Shown piece after piece: positions 1 to 5,480 of a stretch of DNA of 40,100 bases. The DNA is taken from contig CASDRY010000088.1 of the NCBI GenBank assembly GCA_949283235.1, forward strand, positions 1 to 40,100. The letters run 5' to 3'. This DNA comes from an uncultured Spirochaetales bacterium. GTDB lineage: Bacteria > Spirochaetota > Spirochaetia > Sphaerochaetales > Sphaerochaetaceae. How positions within the stretch are numbered: position 1 is the first letter of the stretch; every line of letters starts with the position of its first letter. Below the pieces are notes generated by a model that saw only the letters and a list, made by a program, of their open reading frames with translations, made no database searches and was not told the origin of the DNA. A program made the position numbers and the translations under genes.

Positions 1-450
1 AGGAACGAAGAGAGATGGATTCATAAGCTCTTCCTTCTCCGCATGGACTGCAAGCACACCCTTGTAGCGAGCGTCTGAAAGCACCTTGAATACCGCTCTC
101 TGCTTCTCCTTCCCTATTATTCCCATGTTCCCTGTAGATTGACCTGCGAACATCTTAAGTCCGACCACAAGCGGGAAAAGCTCATCATGGAGATCAACCA
201 TCTCCCTGATCTGATCTTCATCAGAGGTTATCCCACCATACAGATGATATGAAACACCTGTCTTTTCCGCACTCTCACCACCATCTGCCAGACGAGAGAG
301 TATCGTGTCCCTGTCAGTACAGGGAGGATTTGTGTTCGGCATATCAAAGAGATGATTAAAGCCTAGGCGTGAAGCGACTTTCATGCCATGCTCAATCGTT
401 TCCTTGCTGCTCTGATTCCAATCTCTTAGGTGAACATGAGGATCTATCAT
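1..450 (-). CDS. pyrC: Dihydroorotase PyrC, partial (C-terminus off the left edge)
   Basis: Only the first 150 codons are present. The protein starts with M-I-D-P-H-V-H-L-R-D, the metal-binding D-x-H-V-H-L-R motif of dihydroorotase, followed near residue 40 by M-P-N-T-N-P-P, the substrate loop of the family, and by G-L-K-M-F, a plausible position for the carboxylated lysine. Dihydroorotase closes carbamoyl-aspartate to dihydroorotate, the third step of cytoplasmic pyrimidine synthesis. Its ATG overlaps the TGA of the upstream pyrDK gene by four bases (ATGA), so translation is probably coupled. It is the last visible gene of the pyr operon. The sequence stops at the window edge, so total length and later motifs cannot be judged. 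Assignment to dihydroorotase rather than another cyclic amidohydrolase rests on the motifs and on operon context. Confidence 0.93.
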   Translation of the reverse strand, partial: MIDPHVHLRDWNQSSKETIEHGMKVASRLGFNHLFDMPNTNPPCTDRDTILSRLADGGESAEKTGVSYHLYGGITSDEDQIREMVDLHDELFPLVVGLKMFAGQSTGNMGIIGKEKQRAVFKVLSDARYKGVLAVHAEKEELMNPSLFVP

Positions 451-2114
451 AACTCAGCTCCATTCTCCTTGAGCGTATGCCATGTGAAGAAAGTACCTTC
501 CTTGCATGTGAGATGCCCACCGCAGACACACTCTCCGCACATACCTATACCGCACATCGTATTCTTCTCCATCGAGAGATAGATGCGGTTATCATCAAGA
601 CCAAGAGCTTCAAGCTTAGCAGCCGCTTTCTCCATCAGTTTCCCAGGTCCCACGACGTATGCAGATACATCCCCCTCGATATCTTCTTCTGAGAGTGTAT
701 CGAGAACACGGCCTGGCTTTCCATCATCAGGAACGGAACGATAGCTACCATATGATCTGAGAACGTCTTCAAGCGGATCCTTTCCATCCTCTTTCTCAAC
801 AATTCCCACTCTGATATCCATCTCTGTACCATCGTTTTTGAGTTTATCCCCGATAAGAGGAAGTACAGCAGCACCTGTTCCACCACCAATGAGAATAGCC
901 TTCTTCGAAGGAGTATAGACCATAGGTCTGCCATAGAGCCCCCTGGTATAAACAGTGTCCCCTACATTCACGCTAAAGAGCGCTTCTGTGAACTCACCCC
1001 TCTTCTTTATGAGGAATGTAAGAGGCTTGTTTACGGCAACTGAGAATGGCTTCTCGCCCTTTCCAGGGACCCAGATGAAGACAAACTCACCACTCTGACA
1101 GTTCATCTCGCCAGAGAGAGTCATAACCATCACATTACCCTTATGCATCTCCTTGCTGAGAACTGTATGAGGAGTGTAAACAAGCTTGTTATCTGCAGAG
1201 AGGAGTGAAGAGACATCCTTTCCTGTCTTCATTCTATGGAAGTACTCTTCCCACTCAGTTGGCATAACACGGGAAAGCGCGGATCCTATTCCAACACTAT
1301 CAGCACCGGCCTCAAGCATTGCCTCAACATCTTCAGGGCGAGTAACTCCTCCCATTCCGAGGATTATAGGATCATCTCCGATAGCCTCTCTTATTTCTTT
1401 GATACACTCAAGCGCGGTACTATTCACCCACTCTCCGGAAGCTCCGCCTTTACCTCCAAGCTTGTTATTGAGGATAGGAGCACCAGAGTGCGGCTCTGTG
1501 TAAAGCTTAGGACCAACTGTGTTGATAGCGGCAATTCCATCTGCTCCAGCTTCTATAACAGCCTTTGCGATAGCCCCGATATCAGGGACATTGGGAGTAA
1601 GCTTCACGATAAGAAGTGCTTTTCTATCTGGAAGCGCATCAACTATTGCCTTCACATAGGAAGAAGCTATCGAAGCATCGCTTCCGATAGAAGCGCCAAA
1701 GCCTGCAGCTGCATGAGGACAGGAGAAATTGAGCTCAAGCATATCACCATAGGGATCAAATGCTTTTACAAGTGTTATGAAATCCTCAGGGTTGGATGCC
1801 GAGAGCGATATATTGAGAAGCGCCCTCATACCATTCCCCCTGATTTCCCTTATCTCTGGAAGCACAACATCCATTCCTGGGTTTCTGAGTCCGACCGAAT
1901 TCCCGAAATCCCCAAGCGATGGAGAGCAGACTATAGGCTCCCTGTTTCCCGGATTCGGTGTTACCTGGAAGCTCTTTGTCGTTATGATATCCACACTCGG
2001 GATTTTCTTATCAAAGAGCTCTATCAGCTCCTTCTTGGTGGATGCGACACCGGATACAGTTGCAAGTATCGCTTTCTTTCTGAGATGGTTCTTTCTGAGT
2101 TCGCTTATATCCAT
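447..2114 (-). CDS. pyrD: Dihydroorotate dehydrogenase fused to its electron-transfer subunit (PyrD-PyrK fusion)
   Basis: This 555-residue protein joins two subunits that are normally separate. Residues about 1-295 are a class 1B dihydroorotate dehydrogenase: N-F-S-C-P at 129-133 carries the class 1 active-site Cys (C132), and G-M-G-G-V near 255 is the FMN phosphate site. Residues about 305-555 resemble PyrK: a ferredoxin-reductase-like beta barrel, a nucleotide-binding G-G-G-T-G-A, and a C-terminal [2Fe-2S] motif with C521, C526, C529 and C537. In the known two-subunit 1B enzymes PyrK passes electrons from FMN through FAD and the iron-sulfur cluster to NAD+; the fusion should do this in one chain. 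The start codon overlaps the pyrF stop (TGATG) and the stop overlaps pyrC (ATGA). The whole reading frame is open, so the fusion is real in this sequence. Confidence 0.93.
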   Translation of the reverse strand: MDISELRKNHLRKKAILATVSGVASTKKELIELFDKKIPSVDIITTKSFQVTPNPGNREPIVCSPSLGDFGNSVGLRNPGMDVVLPEIREIRGNGMRALLNISLSASNPEDFITLVKAFDPYGDMLELNFSCPHAAAGFGASIGSDASIASSYVKAIVDALPDRKALLIVKLTPNVPDIGAIAKAVIEAGADGIAAINTVGPKLYTEPHSGAPILNNKLGGKGGASGEWVNSTALECIKEIREAIGDDPIILGMGGVTRPEDVEAMLEAGADSVGIGSALSRVMPTEWEEYFHRMKTGKDVSSLLSADNKLVYTPHTVLSKEMHKGNVMVMTLSGEMNCQSGEFVFIWVPGKGEKPFSVAVNKPLTFLIKKRGEFTEALFSVNVGDTVYTRGLYGRPMVYTPSKKAILIGGGTGAAVLPLIGDKLKNDGTEMDIRVGIVEKEDGKDPLEDVLRSYGSYRSVPDDGKPGRVLDTLSEEDIEGDVSAYVVGPGKLMEKAAAKLEALGLDDNRIYLSMEKNTMCGIGMCGECVCGGHLTCKEGTFFTWHTLKENGAEL

Positions 2115-2995
2115 CAGATGGAAGCCTCCGCAAAGAGTGAATGGATCGATGCCATAACCTGATCAAGCCAATCATCTGGAGCTTCTCCCTTCTTCCAAGG
2201 ATGAGTAAGACCAGAGGATGAGTTAATTCTAGCAAGCTCTGCAGGATACTCCGCATTCTTCAGCGCAGCCATTACATCTGTAGCGCTTCCTCCCTGGGAA
2301 CCTACTCCAGGAATGAGCATAGGCATATCCCTGTCAGAGTAGTAGGAGGCTATCTCCCCAAGTTCCTTCATGCTTGTAGCTCCTACGACAGCACCAAGTC
2401 CTGGATGAGAAGAAGCCCAGTGCGCGATGCGATGCGCAACCGCTATATACATCGGATAGAGTTCCTTCTCATCAACAGCATCAACTGAGAGCATATTCTG
2501 AAGATCGATAGCTCCTGGGTTTGATGTCCTGTTGAGAATGTAAACACCCTTATCCTCGAAAGCGAACGGAATTACGGAGTCCGTTCCCATATATGGGGAT
2601 ACTGTCACAGCATCTGCTTTCCAGGAATCGAAAGCCTCTTTTGCATAGTTCTCGCTTGAGCGTGCTATATCACCACGCTTGCTATCAAGAATGACAGGTA
2701 TGCCAGGAAAGAAGTTCTCGATAAGATCCATGATATCTGCAAGTGCAAGAGAACCCTGGAAATCCTCCTCTCTTGGTCTATCCAGAGAGGAATAATACCC
2801 GATATTAGGCTTGAATGCGGCAGGTACTGTACCTTCAAGTCTCATTCTGCGGAAAATCTCAGCAAAATAAGAGGAAAGACGCTCCCTCAGTGGTGCTTCC
2901 GATGCAGGAAGAACAGAGACAATGGGATCAAGTCCCATGCAGACTATATTCCCGGCTTCCTTAGCGCTCTGTCTGAGTTTATCAAGATAGCTCAT
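2114..2995 (-). CDS. pyrF: Orotidine-5'-phosphate decarboxylase, type 2 (long form)
   Basis: The 293-residue product converts OMP to UMP, the last step of de novo pyrimidine synthesis. L-D-S-K-R-G-D-I is the D-x-K-x-x-D-I catalytic motif of the family; early M-G-L-D-P and late P-G-V-G-S-Q-G fit the substrate and phosphate loops. The length of about 290 residues and the A-R-S-S-E-N-Y-A sequence after the catalytic motif match the type 2 enzymes rather than the roughly 240-residue E. coli type. I start it at the ATG at 2995, which overlaps the pyrE TAA by one base (TAATG) and follows AGGGAGGTG at good spacing; an in-frame start 60 bases upstream lies inside pyrE and would add a 20-residue extension unlike the family. 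The stop overlaps the pyrDK start by one base. Confidence 0.95.
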   Translation of the reverse strand: MSYLDKLRQSAKEAGNIVCMGLDPIVSVLPASEAPLRERLSSYFAEIFRRMRLEGTVPAAFKPNIGYYSSLDRPREEDFQGSLALADIMDLIENFFPGIPVILDSKRGDIARSSENYAKEAFDSWKADAVTVSPYMGTDSVIPFAFEDKGVYILNRTSNPGAIDLQNMLSVDAVDEKELYPMYIAVAHRIAHWASSHPGLGAVVGATSMKELGEIASYYSDRDMPMLIPGVGSQGGSATDVMAALKNAEYPAELARINSSSGLTHPWKKGEAPDDWLDQVMASIHSLFAEASI

Positions 2996-3690
2996 TACTT
3001 CACCTCCCTTGGAAAGCCTCTCTTCTCGCCCCATCCGAAAGGATCCTCTCTCCATTCACGGAGGACATCAGCCTCCTCTGAGGAGATATAGCCTGTCTCA
3101 TATGCTGTATGAATCATTGTGTCATATGAGAGGATTGTGTAGAAAATACACTCAGGGTCTAGTGCCGCAAATGCATCGACAGAGGCCTTGAGACCATATG
3201 TGAAGATAGCAAGACAGAGCGAGCAGTCACCATTTGCATTTCTGATAGCCTCTACAGCTTTCAGTGAAGAAGAGCCAGTGGAGATCAGGTCCTCGATAAG
3301 CACTACCTTCTGATTGCCATAGCCTTCCTTTCCTATTCCCTCAATCTGATGTCCGAGTCCATGGTCCTTTGAGGAAGAACGGACATATGAAAGCGGTTTG
3401 TAGAGCATATCAGCAAGACTTGTCGCGTGAGGAATTCCCGCTGTTGCAGTTCCCGCGATGTTATCGCACTTCTCACCTGTAGCTGAGAGCATATCAGCAA
3501 AGGCATCCCTTATAAGAGCTCTGTACTTCGGTGATGAGAGGAACATCCTGTTATCGTTATAGATAGGCATCCTGTATCCAGAAGCCCATGTAAAAGGAGC
3601 TGAAGGTGAAAGTTTTATCGCACCAAGCTCAAAAGCTCCTTTCGCGAGTATCGGTCCATAGTATTCTGTTATTTCATCCAATCTTTTCAT
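2995..3690 (-). CDS. pyrE: Orotate phosphoribosyltransferase
   Basis: The 231-residue enzyme joins orotate to PRPP to make OMP for the overlapping downstream pyrF. The PRPP-binding signature V-V-L-I-E-D-L-I-S-T-G-S-S is near residues 125-137. I-K-L-S and F-T-W-A-S-G-Y-R in the N-terminal part match the orotate-binding region of PyrE. Two ATG codons are possible. The one at 3711 directly abuts the pyrBI stop codon; the one at 3690 has TTGGAGAG six to seven bases upstream and starts M-K-R-L-D-E, so I chose 3690. The gene is third-to-last in a tightly packed operon with one-base or four-base overlaps, implying equimolar, coupled expression of all steps after carbamoyl phosphate. Confidence 0.95.
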   Translation of the reverse strand: MKRLDEITEYYGPILAKGAFELGAIKLSPSAPFTWASGYRMPIYNDNRMFLSSPKYRALIRDAFADMLSATGEKCDNIAGTATAGIPHATSLADMLYKPLSYVRSSSKDHGLGHQIEGIGKEGYGNQKVVLIEDLISTGSSSLKAVEAIRNANGDCSLCLAIFTYGLKASVDAFAALDPECIFYTILSYDTMIHTAYETGYISSEEADVLREWREDPFGWGEKRGFPREVK

Positions 3691-3711
3691 ATATCTCTCC
3701 AATTGTAGCAT

Positions 3712-5304
3712 TTATGAGCGTTTTTTCCAGATTTCCTTGAAGGAATGGAAGCGACCGCAGTATGCACATGCAAAGTGACCATCCGGGGTGCGGTAGAAGG
3801 AAGCAGGAACCCCCTCTCCATTGACTGGATTGGAGATACATGCCTCGTTCTGGCAGCAGAGATCATCGAAGTTGTAGATACGAGGTGGCATATGCGTTCT
3901 GTACTTCTCAGCAACACGTCCATCCCTGATTATATTCAGAGTGCAGTGAGGAGCAACTGCGGCAAGTCTCTTCAGATCCTTCCTCTCCAATGGTCTTGCA
4001 CCAGGACGGAAGATTATTCCCTTATACTGTCCATCAGAACCCCTTGATACCCATTCACCGCCACGGCCATCATCAAGACCGAGGATAGATGAGATCAGGC
4101 GCATATGATTTCTGATCGAGCCAGGATCATCACCCTTGCAGATATGGTCAATTACTATTCCATCTGATATAGGGCGAACACCTTCAGAGTAGTTCTTATC
4201 CTTCTTATCCTTCGAAGGCTCCACCTGAATGATGTACTCCTCTGTACGCCTATCTGTGACATGGTCCCCTGGAACAGGAACATAATCATCACCGATCTTA
4301 CCTCCAACAAGGGAAAGAAGAACGATACGGCAGTACATTCCGTTTATCGCCTGTCTCTCCCAGCCATTGAGAGGAGTTTTATCGAGCCATGTAGGAATCG
4401 TCGGATGCTCTTTGTGGCGCGGAAGCGGATGATAGAACCTTGTCCCCTCTTTAAGGTATGGAAGGAAATCCTTCCTGAATGTGATAGCTTCTCTTAGAAT
4501 CTCCTGCTTCTGCAGAATCCTCTCACCCATTCTCTCAAGCTGAGGTCTTGTGAAGTACCAGAGCTTTGCAGGATCCGCTGTCTTCAGATACTCCTCAATG
4601 GATGAGTAGATAGATACCTCAAATCCATTCTCCTTCATCTTCTCGATATATGACTCAGGCATCATGAGCTCTTCAGGAGCGATAAGGTCCACCTTTACGT
4701 GATCAAAGATTCTGAGGCCATCTGCCTTGGAGTGTACTGTACGCCCATGGTAAAGATCTCCGACAAGCGCTACATGAATCGAGCTGAAATCCATCGAGAG
4801 GTCTTCAAGGAATGAGAACTCATCGAGAAGCTCCTGTGTAGGATGCTCATGTTTTCCATCTCCTGCATTTATGAATGCTGGCCTATATGGAAGGTTATTG
4901 CGCTCAGCATACTCTGTACATTCCTCTGAAAGCCACTTTGTCAGTCCTTCGACCTTGCTTCTCACGATGAAGATCGAGTTATGGTATCCGGAAAGCATAT
5001 TGAATGTGTCCGCATAGCTCTCACCTTTATTGATGGAAGATGAAGAGGAGATAAGCTCGGAAACCTTCACATGATGGAAGTTCGCAGCATTCCTGAATGA
5101 TTCCTTCGTTCTGGTGCTGTCTTCAAGGAATACTTCATAGATACCGAAATCCGGATCATTGATACGGAAGCTATCCAGAACCTTCTCATCACCAGCGATG
5201 ATAGCATCCTTGAGTTCCTTTACCTTTGTGAAGAAATATCTGCGCTCATTAATCGAGAGATCGTCTATTACATTCAGCGATCTTGAAGCGAATACACTGG
5301 ACAT
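3712..5304 (-). CDS. pyrB: Fused aspartate carbamoyltransferase catalytic and regulatory chains (PyrBI)
   Basis: The 530-residue protein makes carbamoyl-aspartate, the committed step. Residues about 1-335 are the catalytic chain, with S-T-R-T (carbamoyl-phosphate site), N-K-G-E (lysine from the neighbouring chain), H-P-T-Q-E, G-R-T-V-H and H-P-L-P-R. Residues about 375-530 are a PyrI chain: G-I-V-I-D-H-I is the nucleotide-effector motif and C484, C489, C513 and C516 form the C-x4-C...C-x2-C zinc site that docks regulatory to catalytic subunits. Fused chains of this kind are known in Thermotoga maritima and Treponema denticola. The start is set at the ATG at 5304, preceded by AAGGAG; a GTG two codons earlier is too close to that site. 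An intrinsic terminator ends only about 15 bases upstream, so expression must depend on read-through (see the leader). Confidence 0.96.
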   Translation of the reverse strand: MSSVFASRSLNVIDDLSINERRYFFTKVKELKDAIIAGDEKVLDSFRINDPDFGIYEVFLEDSTRTKESFRNAANFHHVKVSELISSSSSINKGESYADTFNMLSGYHNSIFIVRSKVEGLTKWLSEECTEYAERNNLPYRPAFINAGDGKHEHPTQELLDEFSFLEDLSMDFSSIHVALVGDLYHGRTVHSKADGLRIFDHVKVDLIAPEELMMPESYIEKMKENGFEVSIYSSIEEYLKTADPAKLWYFTRPQLERMGERILQKQEILREAITFRKDFLPYLKEGTRFYHPLPRHKEHPTIPTWLDKTPLNGWERQAINGMYCRIVLLSLVGGKIGDDYVPVPGDHVTDRRTEEYIIQVEPSKDKKDKNYSEGVRPISDGIVIDHICKGDDPGSIRNHMRLISSILGLDDGRGGEWVSRGSDGQYKGIIFRPGARPLERKDLKRLAAVAPHCTLNIIRDGRVAEKYRTHMPPRIYNFDDLCCQNEACISNPVNGEGVPASFYRTPDGHFACAYCGRFHSFKEIWKKRS

Positions 5305-5318
5305 GGCCACTCCTTAAT

Positions 5319-5340
5319 AAAAAAGCCGGACAATGCCGGC
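5319..5340 (-). terminator. Intrinsic terminator in the pyr leader (attenuator)
   Basis: On the minus strand a five-base-pair GCCGG/CCGGC stem with a six-base loop is followed by six T. It ends just before the AAGGAG of pyrBI, so no promoter can fit between them. It lies three bases after the stop codon of the leader ORF. It may also stop transcription from the upstream ugp operon, but its position forces any pyr transcript starting upstream to cross it. Confidence 0.8.
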
Positions 5341-5343
5341 AAA

Positions 5344-5409
5344 TTATTTAGAAATAATAAGGTAAGGATCGTAAGATGATACGAAGTAAATATCTATCAG
5401 ACTATACAT
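5344..5409 (-). CDS. pyr operon leader peptide (21 aa), UTP-sensitive attenuator candidate
   Basis: This short ORF starts at ATG 5409 with a strong GGAGG five bases upstream and ends in TAA at 5346-5344, three bases before the terminator stem. The peptide is MYSLIDIYFV followed by SSYDPYLIISK. Its coding RNA is about 44% U, and the last third is especially U-rich. In E. coli pyrBI a U-rich leader makes RNA polymerase pause when UTP is low, so that the translating ribosome closes up and masks the terminator. Here a ribosome near the stop codon would cover the GCCGG arm, so the same logic works. The mechanism is inferred from this arrangement; the ORF, ribosome site and terminator are directly visible. 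The residues themselves (four Tyr) are probably less important than translation of the U-rich stretch. Confidence 0.7.
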   Translation of the reverse strand: MYSLIDIYFVSSYDPYLIISK

Positions 5410-5452
5410 CCTTGCCTCCGTCTGGATAGGATATCAGAAGGAGGGATTGGTG

Positions 5453-5480
5453 TCTATATTCTGCACAGCACCTATTTAAT
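5453..5480 (-). promoter_or_regulatory. Candidate pyr operon promoter
   Basis: TATAGA at 5458-5453 (minus strand) is a reasonable -10 box; ATTAAA at 5480-5475, sixteen bases upstream and overlapping the end of ugpE, is a weak -35. It is the best candidate upstream of the leader ORF, about 45 bases before it. Transcription may also enter from ugpE. Confidence 0.3.

Follow-up and report, generated by a model that had tools for sequence, protein, structure and literature searches.

The question raised by this locus is whether the short open reading frame (ORF) standing before the pyrBI gene of an uncultured spirochaete is the leader of an attenuator like that of E. coli pyrBI, and, if it is, how a ribosome could act in time on an RNA of only about 100 nt. 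The second part of the question is an old one. In the pyrL leader of E. coli, 49% of which requires U, low UTP makes the polymerase pause, and the ribosome coupled to it keeps the terminator from forming (PMC10135430). Where a stop codon lies a few bp before a terminator the ribosome represses termination, and unless RNA polymerase pauses, a ribosome is unlikely to draw level with it within the first 100 bp (PMC4824070).

The window, by which we mean the whole 40,100-nt stretch of DNA that was analysed, comes from the genus Candidatus Ornithospirochaeta of the family Sphaerochaetaceae. We consider it probable that its pyrBI leader is a translation-coupled attenuator of the E. coli pyrBI kind which controls the pyrBI-E-F-DK-C operon, and in which a hairpin masking the leader start, here called P1, gates the loading of the ribosome. 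The translation coupling is strongly supported by the sequence comparisons; what we infer is that ribosomes do read the leader, that termination depends on the UTP level and that P1 works as a timer. Read along the minus strand, the locus starts where a ugp-type permease gene ends (stop at 5472) and continues through a promoter, GGAGG, the leader ORF and a terminator to pyrBI, with the following features:

5428..5456, minus strand: predicted promoter with TAGACA (-35), a 17-nt spacer and a TG-extended -10 TATCCT, from a sequence scan and from relatives.
5415..5419, minus strand: Shine-Dalgarno (SD) sequence GGAGG of the leader ORF, from the sequence.
5344..5409, minus strand: leader ORF of 21 codons and a stop, MYSLIDIYFVSSYDPYLIISK, with its ATG at 5409, from the sequence and the family comparison.
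5359..5418, minus strand: start-masking hairpin P1, with 5′ arm 5418-5405 (SD and AUG), 3′ arm 5373-5359 and the ORF body as its loop, from the MFE fold and family covariation.
5341..5360, minus strand: U-rich tract between the 3′ arm of P1 and the terminator, the presumed zone of UTP-dependent pausing, from its U content.
5319..5340, minus strand: intrinsic terminator, a 5-bp GC stem (5340-5325) and six U (5324-5319), from the sequence, shuffles and family complementarity.
5310..5315, minus strand: pyrBI ribosome-binding site AAGGAG, from the sequence.
3712..5304, minus strand: pyrBI fusion (aspartate carbamoyltransferase catalytic and regulatory chains), 530 aa, NF009916 at 814.7 bits (cut-off 800).
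2995..3711, minus strand: pyrE, TIGR00336 over its cut-off.
2114..2995, minus strand: pyrF, TIGR02127 over its cut-off.
447..2114, minus strand: pyrD-pyrK fusion (dihydroorotate dehydrogenase and electron-transfer subunit), from the best NCBIfam matches of each half, below curated cut-offs.
1..450, minus strand: 5′ end of a pyrC-like (dihydroorotase) gene running off the window, from an HVHLRD motif recognized by eye.

Since pyrE, pyrF, pyrD-pyrK and the pyrC-like gene all lie 3′ of pyrBI, the leader precedes almost the whole pathway. The pyrD-pyrK product has 555 aa, with the dihydroorotate dehydrogenase at residues 14-281 and PyrK at about 314-550. By eye, no pyrBI-like leader was seen ahead of carA in the window's genome.

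The anatomy from which the original prediction started, namely the GGAGG, the U-rich ORF of 21 codons (44% U across 66 nt), the gap of exactly 3 nt between the end of its stop (5344) and the GC stem, the six U and the pyrBI SD, is all present in the sequence. Two features go beyond it: the hairpin masking the leader start and the promoter ahead of the leader. From this promoter, the start of transcription is placed near 5421, directly before the leader SD, which predicts a 5′ UTR of 12 nt. A scan of the window found one promoter site against 1.4 expected in shuffles, so that the window promoter is weak evidence when taken alone; in 45 leaders of relatives, the best score is 9.7 against 7.5 in shuffles, and nearly all of these promoters have TAGACA, TGGACA or TTTACA placed 17-18 nt from a TG-extended -10. 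The original prediction had named a transcription start 3′ of the terminator as an outcome that would speak against it, and the predicted, conserved promoter lies 5′ of the leader instead.

It could also be supposed that the hairpin, situated as it is after ugp-like genes in the window, merely terminates an upstream ugp/glpQ operon, and that the ORF has arisen by chance. This we find scarcely credible, in view of the conserved promoter between those genes and the leader, the mere 14 nt from the T-run to the pyrBI ATG (5304), the persistence of the arrangement in relatives and the ORF statistics given below. The terminator-like site is also above chance expectation: the window has two such sites, one per strand, against 0.3 expected from shuffles.

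Conservation, too, speaks for the leader. PyrBI is present in 119 of the 139 genomes of the order, and more than 110 upstream regions, mostly from MAGs, were inspected; most of them keep the order promoter, ORF, terminator, pyrBI. Leader start codons were picked by SD strength alone, blind to the stop, and 93 of 114 leaders have one. The ORFs so chosen stop at or beyond -12 of the terminator stem in 90 of the 93 cases (33.1 expected from dinucleotide shuffles), and within -12..+16 in 73 (16.1 expected); in a non-redundant subset, all 38 leaders have the stop at or beyond -12, against 14.5 expected. The arrangement of the leader ORF is not due to chance. The terminator itself shows an own-specific complementarity of z -15 across the family, and its stem begins about 80-110 nt from the -10 box in the relatives. 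The leader peptides, on the other hand, drift freely, and neither a conserved peptide nor a recurring codon run was found among the family leaders. To judge from these sequences, it is the distance from ORF to terminator that selection acts on and not the peptide. The picture that the original prediction expected of the relatives, with conserved ORF start, stop position and terminator around a drifting peptide, is therefore the one that they present. One MAG (G093) has two pyrBI copies, on contigs C7 and C8 (L061, L063), which are 98% and 93% identical to the window and have a leader each; these are probably two strains binned together.

The leaders without an SD-preceded ORF, 21 in number, include those of the only five of 139 family genomes with a PyrR above the curated cut-off (G005, G012, G021, G030 and G088, with pyrBI leaders L044, L045, L043, L042 and L123). 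It is suggestive only that a pyrimidine-sensing protein would be present just where the leader has changed; the five genomes are one group of near relatives, and the coincidence is thus perhaps a single event. In L042-L045, L123, L094, L104, L124 and L126, about 10 nt separate the -10 hexamer from the start of the SD-less ORF, the stop of which is still close to the terminator. Genus g45 has leaders with neither SD nor PyrR. Such SD-less leaders, in the PyrR group and in g45, may be read from a leaderless start. At another locus (L220), pyrR and a uraA-like permease gene, so named by eye, are transcribed divergently.

Because PyrR is encoded in those five genomes, an attenuator of the PyrR or riboswitch type has to be weighed for the window as well; we regard it as very improbable. 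No PyrR was found in the window's genome (a MAG that is 85% complete), and it is absent from 134 of the 139 family genomes. Rfam gave no match at gathering threshold for the window and none that was credible for 16 leader loci, and on this ground a riboswitch or PyrR-binding RNA at the leader was rejected. The sequence of P1, moreover, drifts while its pairing is kept, which argues against a bound ligand.

What, then, could prevent the terminator? A trp-like antiterminator would pair with the 5′ arm of the terminator, and no own-specific leader pairing of this sort was found across the family. Measured against cross-species combinations, the pairing with this arm gave z +1.7 for the ORF body, z +3.8 for the 3′ part and z +2.7 for the SD region; it is never above the cross-species level and, for the latter two segments, it is below. 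As far as these comparisons go, leader-terminator pairing is absent or avoided. The next-best segment pair after P1 and the terminator is that of the SD region with the terminator 3′ arm (z -1.7, P 0.05). Since there is no sign of an antiterminator, the ribosome is left as the only candidate for preventing the terminator. Also considered and rejected were a leader control of the pyrBI SD by pairing, for which there is no own-specific pairing (C:S2 z 0.0), and an amino-acid attenuator of the trp type, the leader being without a regulatory codon run and without a hairpin that competes with the terminator.

Besides the terminator, a single structure is conserved in the leaders, and that is P1. 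In the window, it is the MFE fold of the leader (-18.0 kcal/mol, z -2.7, with P 0.08 for the window alone), and it pairs GAGG and AAGGAUGUA, that is, the SD and the start codon, with UACGAUCCUU and CCUU just 5′ of the U-rich tract. Pairing of the P1 type recurs in most family leaders with differing sequences, and the arms compensate each other, as in UUCAGAU/AUCUGAA vs UCCGGAU/AUCUGGA and in AAGGAU/AUCCUU vs UAAGGU/ACCUUA. When the duplex energy of the SD/start region with its own downstream arm was compared with that of arms from other species (41-45 dissimilar leaders), the values were -15.0 and -11.0 kcal/mol, respectively (z -9.7, 0/5000 permutations, a P value that is optimistic because the compared species are related). 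The control segments showed no own-specific pairing (untranscribed promoter z -1.1; codons 4-9 z 0.7). The reversed-arm control gave z -2.9, and a minor part of the complementarity signal is therefore compositional. The statistical strength of P1 derives from the many species, not from the window or E. coli alone. In 32 leaders, the unpaired fraction of SD and AUG falls from 0.54, while the last 32 nt are still to emerge, to 0.18 in the full leader, as compared with 0.35 in shuffles (Wilcoxon P 6.5e-9). We found no published description of a hairpin masking the pyrL/pyrBI start in the open-access literature, although older reports could still contain one.

The U-rich tract spans about -20 to -2 from the terminator stem. 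At -20..-10, the U content is 51% against 24% in the upstream background (41 leaders), and it reaches 66% in the window's close relatives. The tract is present in the window and in most genera and is weak in the Sphaerochaeta-like genus g40, which keeps the ORF, P1 and terminator with only 25-35% U before the stem; the UTP specificity may thus vary. The original prediction that the logic of E. coli pyrBI operates here accordingly holds for the anatomy, with an ORF running into the terminator, a U-rich tract and neither antiterminator nor PyrR; UTP as the signal is the part that we infer, and g40 does not share the U-rich tract. Could the attenuator be sensing something else, such as an amino acid through the leader codons, or translation capacity or growth rate? 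Several leaders open with Arg-rich codons (RYR), and this, together with the composition of g40, would fit such a signal. However, there is neither a conserved codon run nor an alternative hairpin, and a ribosome stalled early would miss the terminator, so that starvation would turn the operon off. We think a signal other than UTP unlikely.

The position of P1 relative to the U-rich tract suggests how UTP could be read. The nascent RNA was folded stepwise, the polymerase being taken to cover 13 nt. In 34 of 36 leaders, the mask was calculated in this way to close with the polymerase at a median of -9 (IQR -11 to -6) from the stem. With the tract at -20 to -2, the masking arm would be inside or just leaving the polymerase during most of the crossing, and P1 would in this way measure the dwell in the tract. 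By this geometry, the start would stay open for longer when low UTP slows the crossing, and it would close when the crossing is fast. The proposed sequence of events is as follows. Transcription would begin just before the leader SD, and the polymerase would cross the ORF, the U-rich tract and the terminator in turn. A ribosome, once loaded, would reach the stop at or inside the stem and hold the stem open, and the operon would be read; with no ribosome loaded, the terminator would form. P1 would gate the loading: the 3′ part of the ORF would pair with the SD and AUG of the same leader, and the hairpin would be shut only once the polymerase, with most of the U-tract behind it, has come to within about 9 nt of the terminator. 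Because closure of P1 has to wait until its 3′ arm has left the polymerase, low UTP would mean an open gate and read-through, and high UTP a shut gate and termination. If this is true, UTP control acts on the loading of the ribosome and not on its catching up alone.

A more modest role for P1 is possible, though to our mind doubtful: the attenuator would be translation-coupled all the same, with P1 serving just to pause the polymerase and/or to shut off leader translation late, not as a timer, and UTP would act via pausing alone. The geometry suits a pause hairpin: from the end of the P1 3′ arm to the stem there are about 20 nt, so that a polymerase held up in the U-tract would stand about 10 nt past the hairpin. 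For such a hairpin, however, the specific pairing of SD and AUG (occupancy 0.71-0.87) would be superfluous. The E. coli pyrL tests likewise lend the idea no support, since no dependence of a main pause on a NusA-type hairpin was found, and NusA and compensatory tests left a hairpin-stabilised pause unsupported (PMC9291695).

The hairpin itself can be followed beyond the spirochaetes. The pyrBI leader of E. coli K-12 can form P1 as well (CGGGAGGA with UUCUUCCCG), and in the same stepwise calculation the unpaired share of its SD and AUG drops from 37% to 1% as the polymerase moves from -7 to -1; against shuffles, E. coli P1 alone has P 0.04-0.09. The hairpin recurs with different sequences in Klebsiella, Photobacterium (AAAAAAUGC with GCAUUUUUU), Aeromonas and the fusobacterium Ilyobacter. 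Seven leaders together give -18.2 for own and -13.5 for cross-species arms (P 0.0004), most species alone being weak; the set consists of E. coli and its close relative Klebsiella, Photobacterium, Aeromonas, Ilyobacter, Proteus and one Clostridia MAG, the leader of which has no mask. The gammaproteobacterial leaders were taken from plasmid-collection records, several of them chromosome-sized. P1 is an extra conserved element which E. coli, too, appears to possess. We offer one generalization tentatively, at a little under an even chance: pyrBI attenuators would have a start-masking hairpin as a general component, in Spirochaetota, Gammaproteobacteria and Fusobacteriota at the least, and this hairpin would time the dwell of polymerase in the U-tract. 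The old question of how the ribosome acts in time on such a short RNA is now approachable via simple E. coli leader mutants.

Some distant loci deserve a separate mention. In Ilyobacter polytropus (L215, 130-300), a 56-codon ORF before pyrB, annotated as hypothetical, resembles a pyrL-type leader; its 10-bp mask is perfect (AGGUAGAAAA/UUUUCUACCU), and a terminator is present. In three MAGs labelled as Clostridia/Ruminococcaceae (L190-L192), a pyrBI fusion shares 71% identity with its spirochaete counterpart, and a pyrE-like gene comes next (in L190 also a pyrF-like one); upstream of position 1501, there are a leader ORF, a very U-rich run (UAUUUCUUUUUAUUUUUA) and a terminator, and no clear P1. 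Either the operon was transferred horizontally together with its leader, or the sequences were mis-binned. PyrBI-like proteins of 48-52% identity are found in Absconditabacterales MAGs (L200, L205).

As far as we searched, there is no earlier description of pyrimidine control in Sphaerochaetaceae, and, within the same limits, an attenuator of the pyrBI kind is new for Spirochaetota. It would extend translation-coupled control of this type from the gammaproteobacteria to a whole family of another phylum, one in which PyrR is mostly missing. The likeness to E. coli pyrBI lies in a promoter near a short leader ORF, a U-rich transcript, an ORF running onto an intrinsic terminator and the aspartate carbamoyltransferase genes that follow, and may reflect common descent or convergence. 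The spirochaete ORF, however, has mostly 17-28 codons with a stop usually at -8..+15 of the stem, whereas that of E. coli has 44 codons and a stop 47 nt after the start of the stem; E. coli also has an extra local hairpin within the P1 loop, and it is only for E. coli that the UTP response is proven. In the E. coli pyrE attenuator, the leader is the upstream gene rph, and translation likewise proceeds into the terminator under UTP control, while the spirochaete leader is a dedicated short ORF. The PyrR-dependent attenuation of Bacillus also controls the pyr operon by termination, but it needs PyrR and an anti-antiterminator, neither of which was found for the spirochaete leader. The trp-type leaders share the leader peptide, the terminator and a leader hairpin, which can cover the leader start; their 1:2 hairpins serve as pause hairpin and/or as late shut-off of leader translation. 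What sets them apart is the regulatory codon run and the competing hairpin, both of which the trp-type attenuators have and the spirochaete leader does not.
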